From assembly GCA_014654775.1 (NCBI GenBank), contig JACVZW010000030.1:1-64000 (forward strand): a stretch of 64,000 nucleotides of DNA, written 5' to 3'. Shown here piece by piece: positions 23,107-45,738 of the stretch; position 1 is the stretch's first letter, and each line of letters begins with the position of its first letter. Source of the stretch: Paracoccaceae bacterium (lineage in GTDB: Bacteria > Pseudomonadota > Alphaproteobacteria > Rhodobacterales > Rhodobacteraceae). Below the pieces are notes generated by a model. It was given only the letters and a program-made list of their open reading frames with translations. It did not search any database and was not told the origin of the DNA. The position numbers and the translations under genes are program-made.

Positions 23107-23251
23107 GACCGCACCTCCCTTCCTGCATCGCCCAACGGCTTGTCCCACAGCTAAGGAAAGCCGCCCCGCTTGCCAAGCCACCCGGCCCCACATCTGCGCG
23201 AGCCATGCCGAAAGCCCCCGCAAAATCCCCGCCCCGCCCCCGAAATCGGCC

Positions 23252-23308: not shown

Positions 23309-23398
<90 letters not shown>

Positions 23399-23757
23399 AT
23401 ACACCAATCCTCCTTCCCTGACGCATTCCACGCCGCCCCGCCTGTGTAGCGATGGCGCGAATCGGGGCGGCGCGGCGTCATCCGCTCCCTCTTGCCGCCC
23501 TTCCGCCCCGCCCGGCGCCCCGTCGGCACGCGGTTCCAAGCGGCAGTCAGCGGTCGAATGGGCGAATTACGGGCCCTTTCCCGCAGTTTCGCATAAACCT
23601 TCGGCCAAATCCGCCGCCCTCCGCCTATACCGCCAGAAACACCCGGCGGAGTCCCGCGCACGTAAACAGAAGGCCGACTGGCCCTGACTTGCCAGCGCGC
23701 AAAAAGCCCGTGCAGGCTTCCCCTCGTCGACTGTCATTCACTCAGGGAGGGTCTCCG

Positions 23758-23964
23758 ATGGACCGTGTTTTTGCTCTTCTGTCCGCCGCTATGTTTGCCG
23801 TGATGCTGTCCAGCGTCGCCCTCTTCCTGATGATCGTGGAAGGCCGCGCCGCGGCGCTCGTTCTCATGCCCGCCGAAGCGGCCCAGTCCGGGGCCCAGTC
23901 CGGGGCCAAGGCGCCGATCGGCTTCACCCCGCTCTGGGTGCCCGAAACCGACCTGCCCGAATAA
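23758..23964 (+). CDS. Small single-pass membrane protein, unknown
   Basis: 68-residue protein with one strongly hydrophobic helix (about residues 4-27, VFALLSAAMFAVMLSSVALFLMI) and a short polar C-terminus with a repeated SGAQSGA motif. AGGGAGG stands before the ATG, which makes translation likely. I do not recognise the family, and no neighbour suggests a role. Confidence 0.6.
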   Translation: MDRVFALLSAAMFAVMLSSVALFLMIVEGRAAALVLMPAEAAQSGAQSGAKAPIGFTPLWVPETDLPE

Positions 23965-24135
23965 CCCGCCCCTGCCACAGCAGCGTCGACCCGACTGTCG
24001 AACGCCCACCTCACGCCCTTTGCCGCCACCGCGTCCCCTGTCGCATCGCAGGGCATAGGCCCACCACGCCCGATCCCCAACCCAAAGCACAGCTCTGCGC
24101 CGCCAGCACCAACGCCAGCGGCAGGGCTGGAACGG

Positions 24136-24202
24136 AAAAGGCCCGCCCCGGGGTCACGGGAACGGGCCTGTCGAATGAGGATGGAGGCAAGCCATCCCCG
24201 AC
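24136..24202 (-). ncRNA. Candidate iron/manganese-responsive small RNA
   Basis: Predicted transcript of about 67 nt on the minus strand, from the promoter at 24209-24237 to an intrinsic terminator. It contains a 6-bp hairpin (GGATGG/CCATCC, 24197-24192 and 24184-24179) with loop CTTGCCT, so GCCTCC is partly exposed and could pair with Shine-Dalgarno sequences. A second hairpin (AGGCCCG/CGGGCCT, 24169-24163 and 24145-24139) is followed by TTTT. A 13-codon reading frame (ATG 24195, stop 24154) lies inside, so a leaderless peptide is an alternative. The next minus-strand gene is over 1 kb away, which argues against a 5' leader. Confidence 0.55.
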
Positions 24203-24208
24203 GCCACC

Positions 24209-24237
24209 TTTATGCGAATGATTTGCAACCGCATCAA
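24209..24237 (-). promoter_or_regulatory. Promoter with Fur/Mur-box-like palindrome
   Basis: On the minus strand: -35 TTGATG (24232-24237), 17-bp spacer, -10 CATAAA (24209-24214), with an A/T-rich upstream stretch (24241-24270). The spacer contains TGCAAATCATTCGCA (24213-24227), a near-palindrome resembling alphaproteobacterial Fur/Mur boxes and overlapping the -10 element, as expected for a repressor site. Regulator identity is inferred from the motif only. Confidence 0.5.
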
Positions 24238-24615
24238 GGGAAAATCTGCTTCCAAATGCATCTTTTTTTGGCCACCCGCAGAACGGTAGAAATCGGCCCC
24301 CGTCACCCCGGCCCTGCGGTCTAACGGCCCCGAAACTCGGCGCTGCGCGAGTGAACCTTTCCCAACCCCCTAACTATTCTCCCTTTTCTGGCCGCCACAT
24401 CTTTCGCGAAGCGCGAAATCCCGCCACCGGTGCTTGCCGCGCAAGGCGCAGCACAACCCTAGACCTGTTTGATCTGGCGCAAAGCCGTCATCTGCGCCGT
24501 CTCGTAAGTCTCTCTTAATGACAAAGCTTTTCTTCCGTTCTTCCCGATAGGCGGGCCGTTCACGGAAGACTCGGCCCGTCAGCCGACTCAGGTGCATCCA
24601 CCGCAGGAAGACCGA

Positions 24616-27600
24616 ATGCCGCTTAGACCCACCGGCCGCGCCCAGAACCCGCTCCGTCCGGCCTGCATCCTGCTTCCCAGCATACTCACGCTCGGCGCCC
24701 TGTCCGGGCGGGCCTTGGCACAGACCGCGACCCCCGCGGCCACCACCAGCCCGTGGCTGGCGCTGATCGCGGCCCTCCTCGCGGTTCTCTGCCTCGCCGC
24801 CTTCGTCACCATCCTGATCCTGCGCGGACGGCTCCGTCGGCTGATGGAGGCCCGCCACGTCATCGCCGAGGCCCTGCACAAACGCATTCGCGAACGCGAC
24901 GGCCTGCATGCCGTCTTCCTCGCCACCGAAGACCTGACACGCCCCCCGCAAGAGACGCTCGCCGCCATCGCCCGCGCGCTTGAAACGGGGATCGGCGCGC
25001 CGAACGAGTTCCGCTTCCGCCTGCGCCTCTTCGACGCCCTTCACGATCCGCTCCCCGGCACCGACGGCCCGCCCCTCTTCGCCACCACCCTGACCATCGA
25101 AGGGATCGAGGCTGGCGAGATCGCCGTCTTCGCCGCCTCCGGCCGCAGCGCCCATCTCCACCCCGAAGAACGGCTGCTGGTCGAACTCGCCGCCTCGCGC
25201 CTTGCTGGGCGCAGCCTTGGCGCACTGGCGACCCAGCGCCTCGCCCGCAGCGAGGAACGCTTCCGCCACACCTTCCAGCATTCCGCACAGGCCACCGCCG
25301 TGCTGCAGAACGGCATCTTCACCGAGGCGAATGCCGCCGCCCATACCATCCTCGGCTTCCGCGACGGCCACAGCTTCATCGGCCTGCGCCCCGACCAGAT
25401 CTCCCCTGAGTATCAGCCCGACGGCGCGCGCTCCGCCGACAAGGCCACCGCCCTCATTGACCGCGCCCTGCGCGAGGGCAGCGTGAAGTTCGACTGGGAA
25501 CACCTGCGCGCCGACGGCACGCCCGTCCTGATCGAAGTGATGCTCACCGCCGTCGCCGATGGCGACCATGTCGATGTCTTCACCCTCTGGAACGACATCA
25601 CCGTCACCCGTCAGGCCGAAGTGGCGCTCGCCAATTACCAGCGGACGCTCGAGGCACAGGTCGTCCGCCGCACCGAGGAACTCACCGCCCGCACCGAAGA
25701 ACTGCAGACCATCCTCGCCACCGCCGACAGCGGCATCGCCCTTGTCCGCGACGGTCGCATCGCCACCGCCAATCCCGGCCTCTCCGCCCTGCTCCTGCGC
25801 CCGCTCAAACAGTTGATCGGCACCAACTCCCGCCACGTCCTCGCCGATCCCGACGATTGGGCGCGCCTGAAGACCGAGTCGCGCGATGCGATGGAACGCG
25901 GCGAAACCTATTCCTCCAGCACCCAACTGTCCTGCGGCGACGGCTCGCTGCGCTGGGTGCATCTGCGCGCCAAGGCCATCGATCCGCGCGATCCGGGCCA
26001 AGGCGCGGTCTGGGTCATCACCGATGCCACGCAGGAACGGGCCGCCGCCGCCCAACTCGCCCAGGCCCGCGACATCGCCCTGCAGGCGGCGCGGCTGAAA
26101 TCCGAATTCCTCGCCCAAATGAGCCACGAGCTGCGCTCGCCCATCAACGCCGTCATCGGCTTCGGCGACCTGCTGCTCGGCTCTCCCCTCACCGCGCATC
26201 AGCGCGACTATGTGGTCAAGCTGCAGGGGGCAGGCCGCCACCTTCTCTCTATCGTCAACGACGTGCTCGACCTCTCCAAGGTCGAGGCGGGCAAGCTGCG
26301 CATCGAACGCACCGAATTCGCGCTGGCCTCCGTGCTGCGCGCCGCCTGCGACAGCATCGCCGCCGCCGCCGCCGACAAGGGCCTCGAACTGATCCTCGAC
26401 ACCGATCCCACTCTGCCGCCGCGCCTGATGGGCGATCCGCTGCGCATCACGCAGATTCTGATGAACTATCTCAGCAACGCGCTGAAATTCACCGGGACGG
26501 GCGAGATTTTGCTCGACGTCGCCCCCGACACGGGCGCCGATGGCGCAGGGATGATCCGCTTCACTGTCACCGACAGCGGCCTCGGCATGTCGCCCGACCA
26601 GATCGCCCGCCTGTTCCAGACCTTCTCGCAGGCCGAGGAATCCACCGCCCGCCTCTATGGCGGCACGGGCCTTGGCCTCGCCATCTGCCGCCAACTGGCC
26701 GATCTGATGCAGGGCGAGGTGGGCGTCGACAGCACGCCCGGACAAGGCAGCCGCTTCTGGGTGCGCCTGCCCCTCGAGGCCGCCCCGCTGCCCGCCACCC
26801 TCCAGTCCATGGCCCCGCCCCCGGCCCTGTCCGGCAAGCGGCTCCTGATCCTTGATGACAATCCCCGCGCCGCCGCCGCCCTCATCCGCACCCTCGCCGC
26901 CACAGGCGCGCGCCCGACCACCTGCGCGAATGTCGATGCCACCATCGCCGCCGCCCGCGCGGGCCGCTTCGACGCGCTGCTCGTGGACAGCCGGATGCCC
27001 GATGCCGACGGCCATATCGCCGCCGCACGACTGCGCGCCGCCCTCGGGGCGGACCTGCCGCCGCTTCTCTTGCTCTCGCATCGCGGCGGCCATGCGGCGG
27101 TCGAGGATGCCTATGCCCACGGTTTCCGCGACCTCGTCCTGAAACCCGTCGATCCGGATATCCTGATCCCGCGCCTCGCCGCCGTCCTCAATGGCGAAGA
27201 CCCGCAGGGCCGCATCGCGACGCAGGCCCCCGACCCGGCCCAACCGAGCCCCTTCTCAGGCCGCGCCGCCCTCATCGTCGACGACAACCCGATGAACCGT
27301 GAGGTGACGGCAGCCCTTCTCGGCCATCAGGGCTTTGAAACCCTGACGGCCAGCAACGGGGCCGAGGCGCTGCAGACGCTGCTCGACCGCGACATCGACC
27401 TGATCCTGATGGATTGCCAGATGCCCGTGATGGACGGCATCGAAGCCACCCGCCGCATCCGCGCTTTGCCCAGCGCCCGCGCCAGCGTGCCGATCATCGG
27501 CCTGACCGGCCAGTCCGAAGAGGCGGATCGTGACGAAGGCCTTGCCGCAGGCATGTCCGACTACCTTGTAAAGCCCGTCGCCCCCTCGGCCCTGCGCGCG

Positions 27601-27711
27601 ACGCTGGCCCGCCATCTGGGCCACGCGCCCTGCCGACCCGACGGTGTCCCGACGGACGCACCCCTGCCCGACAGCCCGCCTGCGCAGCCCCTCGCCGCTC
27701 AGGTCTCATAG
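24616..27711 (+). CDS. Hybrid sensor histidine kinase with two receiver domains
   Basis: 1031-residue membrane-bound hybrid kinase. There are two N-terminal hydrophobic segments (about 15-37, possibly a signal peptide, and 46-70), a helical linker, a PAS domain (about 215-340), a coiled coil ([13 protein letters not shown]), a second PAS (about 365-470), HisKA with H504 in [14 protein letters not shown], HATPase with [12 protein letters not shown] and GGTGLGLAI, then two receiver domains with phospho-accepting D791 ([10 protein letters not shown]) and D933 ([10 protein letters not shown]). AGGAAG precedes ATG 24616. No response regulator or Hpt gene is adjacent, so it is an orphan. The signal sensed is unknown. 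Its 3' end overlaps the convergent SDR gene by 13 bp. Confidence 0.92.
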
Positions 27712-44664: not shown

Positions 44665-45738
44665 ATGACCACCCCATCGGCACAGAAATCGACGCTTCAG
44701 TACTTCACTTGGGCCTTCATCGTCACCGCAGCAGGTCTCGCGCTTGGCGCATGGCTCGGCTGGGAAACGACGGGCACCGTCTCGGGCATGCTGTCGATCT
44801 TCTTCATCTGCTGCGTCCTCGCGGTTCTCGAAATCTCGCTCTCCTTCGACAACGCCATCGTGAATGCCAACAAACTCAAGGACATGCGCCCCGAATGGCA
44901 GCGCGCCTTCCTGACTTGGGGCATCCTGATCGCAGTCTTCGGCATGCGGATCATCTTCCCGCTGCTGATCGTGGTGGTGGCCGCCAATATCGGCCCGTGG
45001 CAGGCGATCATCCTCGCTTCCACCCAGCCCGAGGAATACAGCCGCATCATGCACGAGGCGCATCTTCCGATCGCGGCCTTCGGCGGGTCCTTCTTGATGA
45101 TGGTGGGCCTGACCTATTTCTTCGACGCCGAAAAGGATGTGCACTGGGTCCGCTGGCTGGAAGAAAAGGTTGCCGCCACCGCCACCATCCGTGGGATCGA
45201 GGTGGGCGTGGTCCTGATCACCATCCTCGTCTTCTCGAAGTTCCTCGAAGGCGCTGAATCCACGGCCTTTGTGTCCTCCGCCATCTATGGCCTCGTGACC
45301 TTCCTCGTGGTCGAAACCGTGGGCGGCCTGTTGGACAAGAGCCAGGAAACGATGTCGGCGGCGGCCAAAGGTGGCCTCGGCGCTTTCCTCTATCTCGAAG
45401 TGCTGGATGCCTCCTTCTCCTTCGACGGGGTAATCGGCGCTTTTGCCTTGTCGAACAACCTCTTCGTCATCGCCATCGGCCTTGGCATCGGCGCGATGTA
45501 TGTGCGCTCCATGACCATCATGCTGGTGGAAAAGGGCACGCTGCAGCAATACCGCTACCTCGAACACGGCGCCTTCTACGCCATCCTGATCCTGTCGGTG
45601 ATCATGTTCAGCCAGACCCTGTTCCATATCCCCGAGGTCATCACCGGCCTTGGCGGGGCGGCGCTGATCGGCCTCTCGCTCTGGTCCTCCATCCGCTGGA
45701 ACCGCACCAACCCCGACGTGGCACTCGACCCGCGCTGA
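44665..45738 (+). CDS. TerC/DUF475 family integral membrane protein
   Basis: 357-residue membrane protein with about nine helices. The acidic signatures EISLSFDNAIVNA (about 55-67) and EVLDASFSFDGVIGAFA (about 245-261) identify the TerC/DUF475 (YkoY-like) family, implicated in metal (manganese) handling or tellurium resistance. The substrate is not proven. The start ATG is preceded by AAGGGAA. It has its own promoter and leader. It ends before a small hairpin (GAAGGA/TCCTTC, 45760-45775) without T-run. Confidence 0.85.
   Translation: MTTPSAQKSTLQYFTWAFIVTAAGLALGAWLGWETTGTVSGMLSIFFICCVLAVLEISLSFDNAIVNANKLKDMRPEWQRAFLTWGILIAVFGMRIIFPLLIVVVAANIGPWQAIILASTQPEEYSRIMHEAHLPIAAFGGSFLMMVGLTYFFDAEKDVHWVRWLEEKVAATATIRGIEVGVVLITILVFSKFLEGAESTAFVSSAIYGLVTFLVVETVGGLLDKSQETMSAAAKGGLGAFLYLEVLDASFSFDGVIGAFALSNNLFVIAIGLGIGAMYVRSMTIMLVEKGTLQQYRYLEHGAFYAILILSVIMFSQTLFHIPEVITGLGGAALIGLSLWSSIRWNRTNPDVALDPR

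Follow-up and report, generated by a model that had tools for sequence, protein, structure and literature searches.

The small RNA (sRNA) RyhB is made from a stand-alone sRNA promoter that carries a Fur-family operator. Other metal-dependent repressors also control sRNAs, and Table 1 of a 2022 review enters such RNAs under Fur (iron), MntR (manganese, Mn), Nur and NikR (nickel), with RsaC placed under MntR, while for Mur, which regulates Mn in alphaproteobacteria, the cognate sRNA is given as 'none reported' (PMC9294342). In Rhodobacter sphaeroides, published accounts of the regulator Fur/Mur describe an almost perfect Mur box between the -10 and -35 elements of sitA and a roughly 50-fold induction of sitA under Mn limitation that needs Fur/Mur (PMC6956336), together with effects of the same regulator on iron genes (PMC3413700). 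Here, we describe an intergenic element in a 64-kb stretch of DNA from a Paracoccaceae bacterium (assembly GCA_014654775.1, contig JACVZW010000030.1, positions 1 to 64,000; hereafter the window) that combines a promoter, a Fur/Mur-type box and a short structured RNA. With a probability of about 0.72, we take it for a stand-alone sRNA gene found in one subgroup of its genus, to which Tabrizicola sp. TH137 belongs; the gene would be repressed by Mur, and its RNA would be made along with a sitA-like uptake system when Mn is scarce and act by pairing through the loop sequence CUUGCC.

The unit and its parts are listed in Table 1. An earlier note, made from the letters of the window alone, had pointed to an sRNA candidate at this place on the minus strand, and the motifs that it named proved to be real: promoter, box, stem-loop and terminator are all present, and all recur in three other species. 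The note had set the box across the -10 hexamer; a Fur/Mur-like box does exist, but its place is in the spacer, and it shares with the -10 no more than the first two bases. The predicted RNA folds at -35.9 kcal/mol (z -3.72), a value equalled by none of 200 shuffled sequences. The upper stem and loop of the terminator (CCG-N-GACCCCGGG, 24147-24159, minus strand) are conserved beyond the apparent need for termination, and possibly constitute a second functional site.

Table 1. Features of the sRNA locus and of other parts of the window discussed in the text.
Feature	Position	Strand	Remarks
Whole unit, promoter to T run	24237-24136	-	TTGATG, 17-nucleotide (nt) spacer, CATAAA, then predicted transcript of ~67 nt
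-35 hexamer TTGATG	24232-24237	-	TTGA invariant in 4/4 homologues; TTGACA in G017
Fur/Mur-type palindromic operator TGCAAATCATTCGCA	24213-24227	-	Inside the -35/-10 spacer, covering two bases of the -10; assigned from homologues, matrix and direct comparison
-10 hexamer CATAAA	24209-24214	-	CATNA invariant in 4/4 homologues; CATTAT in G017
Predicted sRNA, ~67 nt	24136-24202	-	Start placed 6-7 nt past the -10, probable; end at the T run; from fold and model R1
Hairpin 1, GUCGGGGAUGG / CCAUCCU....CGAC	24170-24202	-	Loop CUUGCCU at 24191-24185; CUUGCC invariant
Terminator hairpin AGGCCCGU...GCGGGCCU, then T run	24139-24169	-	GC-rich; TTTT at 24139-24136, with its first U base-paired in the predicted structure; two pairs changed on both sides
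Divergent hybrid histidine kinase open reading frame (ORF)	24592-27711	+	PAS, HisKA, HATPase and two receiver-domain stretches; syntenic marker, membership of the system not known
68-aa ORF	23758-23964	+	Downstream of the sRNA terminator
tRNA-Ser	23309-23398	+	Downstream of the sRNA terminator
DUF2059 ORF	mechanical start 23661	-	On the minus strand, the nearest ORF that matches a protein family
Mechanical ORFs	23734-24090; 24011-24190	-	Putative reading frames
Rfam terC RNA motif RF03067	44501-44561	+	Score 53.8 bits; lies within the conserved leader of the TerC/DUF475 gene
TerC/DUF475 membrane protein gene	44665-45738	+	~20 kb from the sRNA

The unit is established by its conservation. BLASTN recovers it in four of the 19 genomes of the genus, namely the source genome of the window (G000), Tabrizicola sp. 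TH137 (G009), an uncultured Rhodobacteraceae assembly (G017) and G002, and the comparison with relatives for which the earlier note had called came out in its favor: the aligned elements are 61–83% identical, against 31–50% for the 150-nt flanks, and TTGA, ATTCGCA of the box, CATNA, CUUGCC, GACAGGCC and GACCCCGGG are invariant in all four. In every carrier, the unit is found on the upstream side of a divergently oriented hybrid histidine kinase gene. The kinase itself is matched in 16 of the 19 genomes (weakly in G010), and in 12 of these 16 the stretch scanned upstream (up to ~1.5 kb) lacks the box at up to three mismatches, with isolated CTTGCC or GACAGGCC words in some. A model of the sRNA (R1) scores 81–95 bits in the four carriers, the next best value being 29.0 bits in G012, where under a longer model the match aligns to the terminator only; some R1 match at E <= 0.1 is found in 15 of the 19 genomes. 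Across 23 base pairs in the four sequences, 95.7% of cells can pair, a proportion reached in 3 of 500 shuffles. Promoter, structured body and terminator are conserved together, without a conserved ORF, as a stand-alone sRNA gene would have it.

The box aligns this unit with the genes for a Fur-family regulator and for metal uptake. The gene for the best Fur-family protein of the source genome has TGCGAATCGTTAGCA upstream, with 61 bp between its end and the ATG of the ORF as listed, and the same sequence or a one-base variant precedes the fur/mur gene in all four carrier species. At the sitA-like gene, which encodes a substrate-binding protein of the SitA/MntC/AztC type, TGCGAATGGTTCGCA stands between TTGACT and CATC at the 17-nt spacing of the sRNA promoter, and this layout (TTGAC-17-CATC, the spacer containing the box) is found in G002, G009 and G017 as well. 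When a matrix was built from 12 sites at fur and sitA-like genes of the same species, with the sRNA sites excluded, the sRNA box received 20.4 bits, which ranks first in the window (next 10.7) and is matched in none of 30 first-order Markov windows; for the boxes of the three homologues the matrix gives 20.4, 19.5 and 16.1 bits. As these training sites had originally been located with a pattern drawn from the sRNA box (10 distinct places in its own genome), a pattern-free comparison was made of the 300 nt upstream of Fur and SitA-like genes, for which Pfam alone served to find the genes. The box emerged in G000 and G002 as the top 15-mer common to the fur and sitA-like upstream regions (13/15), a level that single-base shuffles attained in 0/10 and 1/10 trials, respectively. 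The box was also the best match of the sRNA element to the sitA-like (13/15) and fur (12/15) upstream regions. Given the matrix scores, the pattern-free matches to the fur and sitA-like boxes and the layout of R. sphaeroides sitA, we interpret the box as a Mur operator: it resembles the boxes of the regulator and uptake genes and sits between the -35 and -10 as at sitA. The proposal of an sRNA gene under a Fur/Mur box therefore stands, with the unit present in four species. The Mn transporter gene mntH occurs in one of the four carrier genomes (G017), and no box match was found at that locus.

From the sequence we infer transcription, Mur binding, Mn as the signal, the direction of regulation and base pairing, which together would work as follows. 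Mur with bound metal, most likely Mn2+, would sit on the box in the spacer and block RNA polymerase; when Mn becomes scarce, Mur would leave the box and the ~67-nt RNA would be produced alongside the sitA-like uptake system; and the RNA would most likely base-pair through its invariant CUUGCC loop, adjusting the expression of metal-related genes. An alternative that we regard as unlikely has iron as the signal, with the RNA as a functional counterpart of RyhB, blocking translation to save iron. R. sphaeroides Fur/Mur is described as acting on iron metabolism as well as Mn, and the R. sphaeroides sRNAs RSs0827 and RSs0680a as induced by iron limitation (PMC3413700, PMC6956336); the regulator's best NCBIfam models, moreover, are Fur models, at scores under their cut-offs. 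Against iron, the sRNA has its box in common with a SitA/MntC/AztC-type metal uptake gene and with the gene of the regulator itself, and the strong response of sitA is ascribed to Mn limitation (PMC6956336). The label 'RyhB-like', under which the candidate had been introduced, is not supported in that form: at gathering thresholds no Rfam family matches the element, and the R. sphaeroides relative of the regulator is best known for Mn-dependent control of sitA. When E values up to 5 were admitted, Rfam returned five weak matches, all far under gathering scores and RyhB not among them.

That the unit adjoins the kinase gene in all four carriers is also compatible with a Mur-regulated short transcript or promoter that has no function at the RNA level, and that, for example, interferes with transcription in the divergent kinase region or is a by-product. 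This we consider distinctly improbable, since the RNA body, including its loop and the terminator loop, is conserved above the flanks and the sRNA heads away from the kinase ORF without overlapping it. Still less probable is a coding transcript, with the ATGGCTTGCCTCC reading frame translated into a small peptide: although ATGGCTTGCCTCCATCCT is identical in three of the four homologues, inspection by eye finds no ATG at the corresponding position of the G017 homologue, and the frame of the G009 and G002 homologues continues past the stop of the window's version and into the terminator.

What the putatively Mur-repressed sRNA might regulate was approached through its loop. A scan for GAGGCAAG sites 2–12 nt before an ATG yielded 20 (G000), 25 (G009) and 32 (G002) rows, against 3, 2 and 0 for the reversed pattern; from these 77 rows in total, a part was examined, as 50 loci (30 + 20) and in frames of at least 60 codons. 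Genes with the site at their start were shared by two species at most, by eye: a LysM-lipoprotein-like gene (G000, G002) and an unidentified gene (G009, G000). Two strings recurred unchanged or almost unchanged in G000, G009 and G002, neither with a gene whose apparent start has the site. Two further candidates make biological sense. The ribosome site of mur contains GAGGCAGG, which by eye can form eight pairs, one of them G-U, with CUUGCCUC (six pairs in G017), and the predicted sRNA–mur duplexes have energies of -32.0 (G000), -31.4 (G009), -25.0 (G002) and -22.6 (G017). The Shine-Dalgarno region of terC holds GGCAAG, the exact complement of CUUGCC; counting terC, the hexamer was seen without mismatch in the 22 nt before a candidate start three times in a survey of 117 predicted genes with 410 such starts. 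Because the terC leader as a whole is conserved at ~92% in both G002 and G009, it means little that the site is kept there, and terC is not present in the 38 kb examined from G017. TerC proteins have been tied in the literature to Mn handling in other bacteria. The terC and mur mRNAs are thus weak target candidates, chosen post hoc. A bolder proposal, which strikes us as rather improbable, is that the element is the first sRNA of a Mur regulon and the core of an Mn-sparing circuit, its CUUGCC loop blocking the ribosome sites of terC/DUF475 (GGCAAG) and mur (GAGGCAGG); if so, Mn handling and the regulator Mur would be turned down together in Mn shortage.

Searches were carried beyond the genus. 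BLASTN with 181 bases gave matches in 7 of 61 relatives; those in G036, G004 and G034, and at a second place in G000, were rejected as homologues, being partial matches of 23–31 bases. In a family sample, which held mostly one genome per genus and was searched with stricter filters, the sRNA model matched 14 of 394 genomes at E <= 0.001. G000 and G002 alone were real; viewed by eye with 90 nt of upstream sequence, the other 12 were terminators or other GC hairpins in which the box was not seen. A pattern scan of genome contigs gave at least 120 loci; among those listed, which were scored along with five viral loci, the G009 (L058) and G017 (L054) copies were real, and two further loci reached 18.3 and 15.9 bits. 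A combined promoter-plus-RNA model (R2) applied to 40 relatives found the same four carriers at 104–124 bits and 11 other genomes at 26.8 bits or below, and a plasmid search for the element gave zero matches. Given this make-up of the family sample and the loci listed from the contigs, homologues in other genera could have escaped detection.

Several observations weigh against an Mn-responsive sRNA gene of the kind proposed. Its spread is restricted: it occurs in just four of the 19 genus genomes, and no convincing copy lies outside the genus among the 394 family genomes, 40 relatives and at least 120 contig loci. G006 and G012 lack the sRNA yet have sitA-like genes with box-like sites, from which we conclude that the sRNA is accessory; this suggests gain or loss of the sRNA inside one genus while the box-like sites of uptake genes persist. 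In the pattern-free comparison, the box ties with other words at 12/15 in G009 and G017, which is chance level. The Fur-like and SitA-like proteins score under the curated NCBIfam cut-offs, and the best model for the latter is zinc-binding AztC (165 bits, cut-off 350); because of these scores and the iron effects of R. sphaeroides Fur/Mur, Mn is a probable choice over Fe or Zn and not a firm one. Covariation of the hairpins, a further test suggested in the earlier note, was borne out in part: three pairs are changed on both sides (33/500 shuffles), as are four cells (9/500 shuffles), but further pair types do not stand out from shuffled data (144/500), and with four sequences the support for the fold is modest. 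As to targets, no gene with GAGGCAAG at its start is common to G000, G009 and G002 among the 50 loci examined, and in G017 the CUCC part is replaced (CUUGCCGG) while CUUGCC is kept in all four; Shine-Dalgarno pairing via GCCUCC is accordingly not supported in the form first suggested. The G000 mur duplex would rank only seventh of 35 when set against 34 genes of the window (best -35.7, mean -26.5). Finally, a generic promoter/terminator scanner run on the window reported neither the sRNA promoter nor its terminator under its stated criteria, so that single-sequence scanning alone is insufficient to establish the unit, which cross-species conservation does. That scanner result, and the fact that weak matches of the sRNA model elsewhere are mostly ordinary terminators, favor chance motifs around an ordinary terminator, an explanation that deserves almost no credence, as it is contradicted by conservation in four species with synteny and by the box tests.

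With regard to its surroundings, the sRNA was described at the outset as having no adjacent downstream gene, and the layout agrees with this: the features past its terminator, the 68-aa ORF and tRNA-Ser, are on the plus strand, and the mechanical start of the DUF2059 ORF would cross the tRNA, which makes an ATG near 23107, ~1 kb off, the likelier start. The 68-aa ORF, between tRNA-Ser and the sRNA, is hydrophobic at its start and contains a short duplicated segment, with zero Pfam or NCBIfam matches. The sitA-like promoter (L014 1501-1515 and upstream, G000:C18) has a second Fur/Mur-type box 29 bp upstream, a pair that recurs in G002, G009 and G017, and its region is common to a divergent gene that by eye resembles a response regulator. 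A conserved TGCAAATTATTGGCA lies between two genes in G000 (L011 1501-1515, G000:C30:284557) and in G009 (L236), the neighbors being a DUF486 (DMT_6) gene and one that by eye looks like pccB, for a propionyl-CoA carboxylase beta chain. This site fits the search pattern but looks more like a PccR site than a Mur box, and it was left out of the Mur evidence. A one-mismatch box-like TACGAAAAATTTGCA (L012 1501-1515, G000:C7:169685) stands ~130 bp upstream of a glpX-like gene, which we take to encode a class II fructose-bisphosphatase, a Mn-using enzyme.

The candidate can be compared with several described systems. The Cuckoo/CcsR-type sRNAs of alphaproteobacteria display CCUCCUCCC motifs in hairpin loops. 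The RNA described here shares with them a short C/U-rich hairpin loop; however, CCUCCUCCC is absent from the element, its loop reads CUUGCCU and the CUCC part is not conserved, and we do not count it as a member. With RyhB, entered under Fur in the review table (PMC9294342), and its analogues it shares a stand-alone sRNA promoter with a Fur-family operator, but it has no Rfam match, its metal is likely Mn and Shine-Dalgarno pairing is for it a hypothesis. We also propose a likeness to RsaC of Staphylococcus aureus, an MntR-controlled, Mn-sparing RNA of Mn starvation that is described as standing under a metal-loaded repressor and beside a metal ABC (ATP-binding cassette) transporter (PMC9294342, PMC12421985); in contrast to RsaC, the sRNA here has its own promoter, is unlinked to the transporter and carries a Fur/Mur box. 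Among the matches listed in our literature search, whose scope left subscription papers and preprints mostly outside, titles and abstract openings named no Mur-controlled sRNA. A compact, conserved candidate with its own promoter in Tabrizicola sp. TH137 makes the question of Mn-sparing RNAs in alphaproteobacteria directly testable. Another close system is the Mur regulon of Rhodobacterales (sitA, mur), with which it has the operator and, as at the sitA-like genes, the promoter layout in common, and from which it differs in being an RNA gene, a class of member that the review table does not give for Mur (PMC9294342); metal-repressed sRNAs are already known, and this candidate is the first for Mur in the literature searched.
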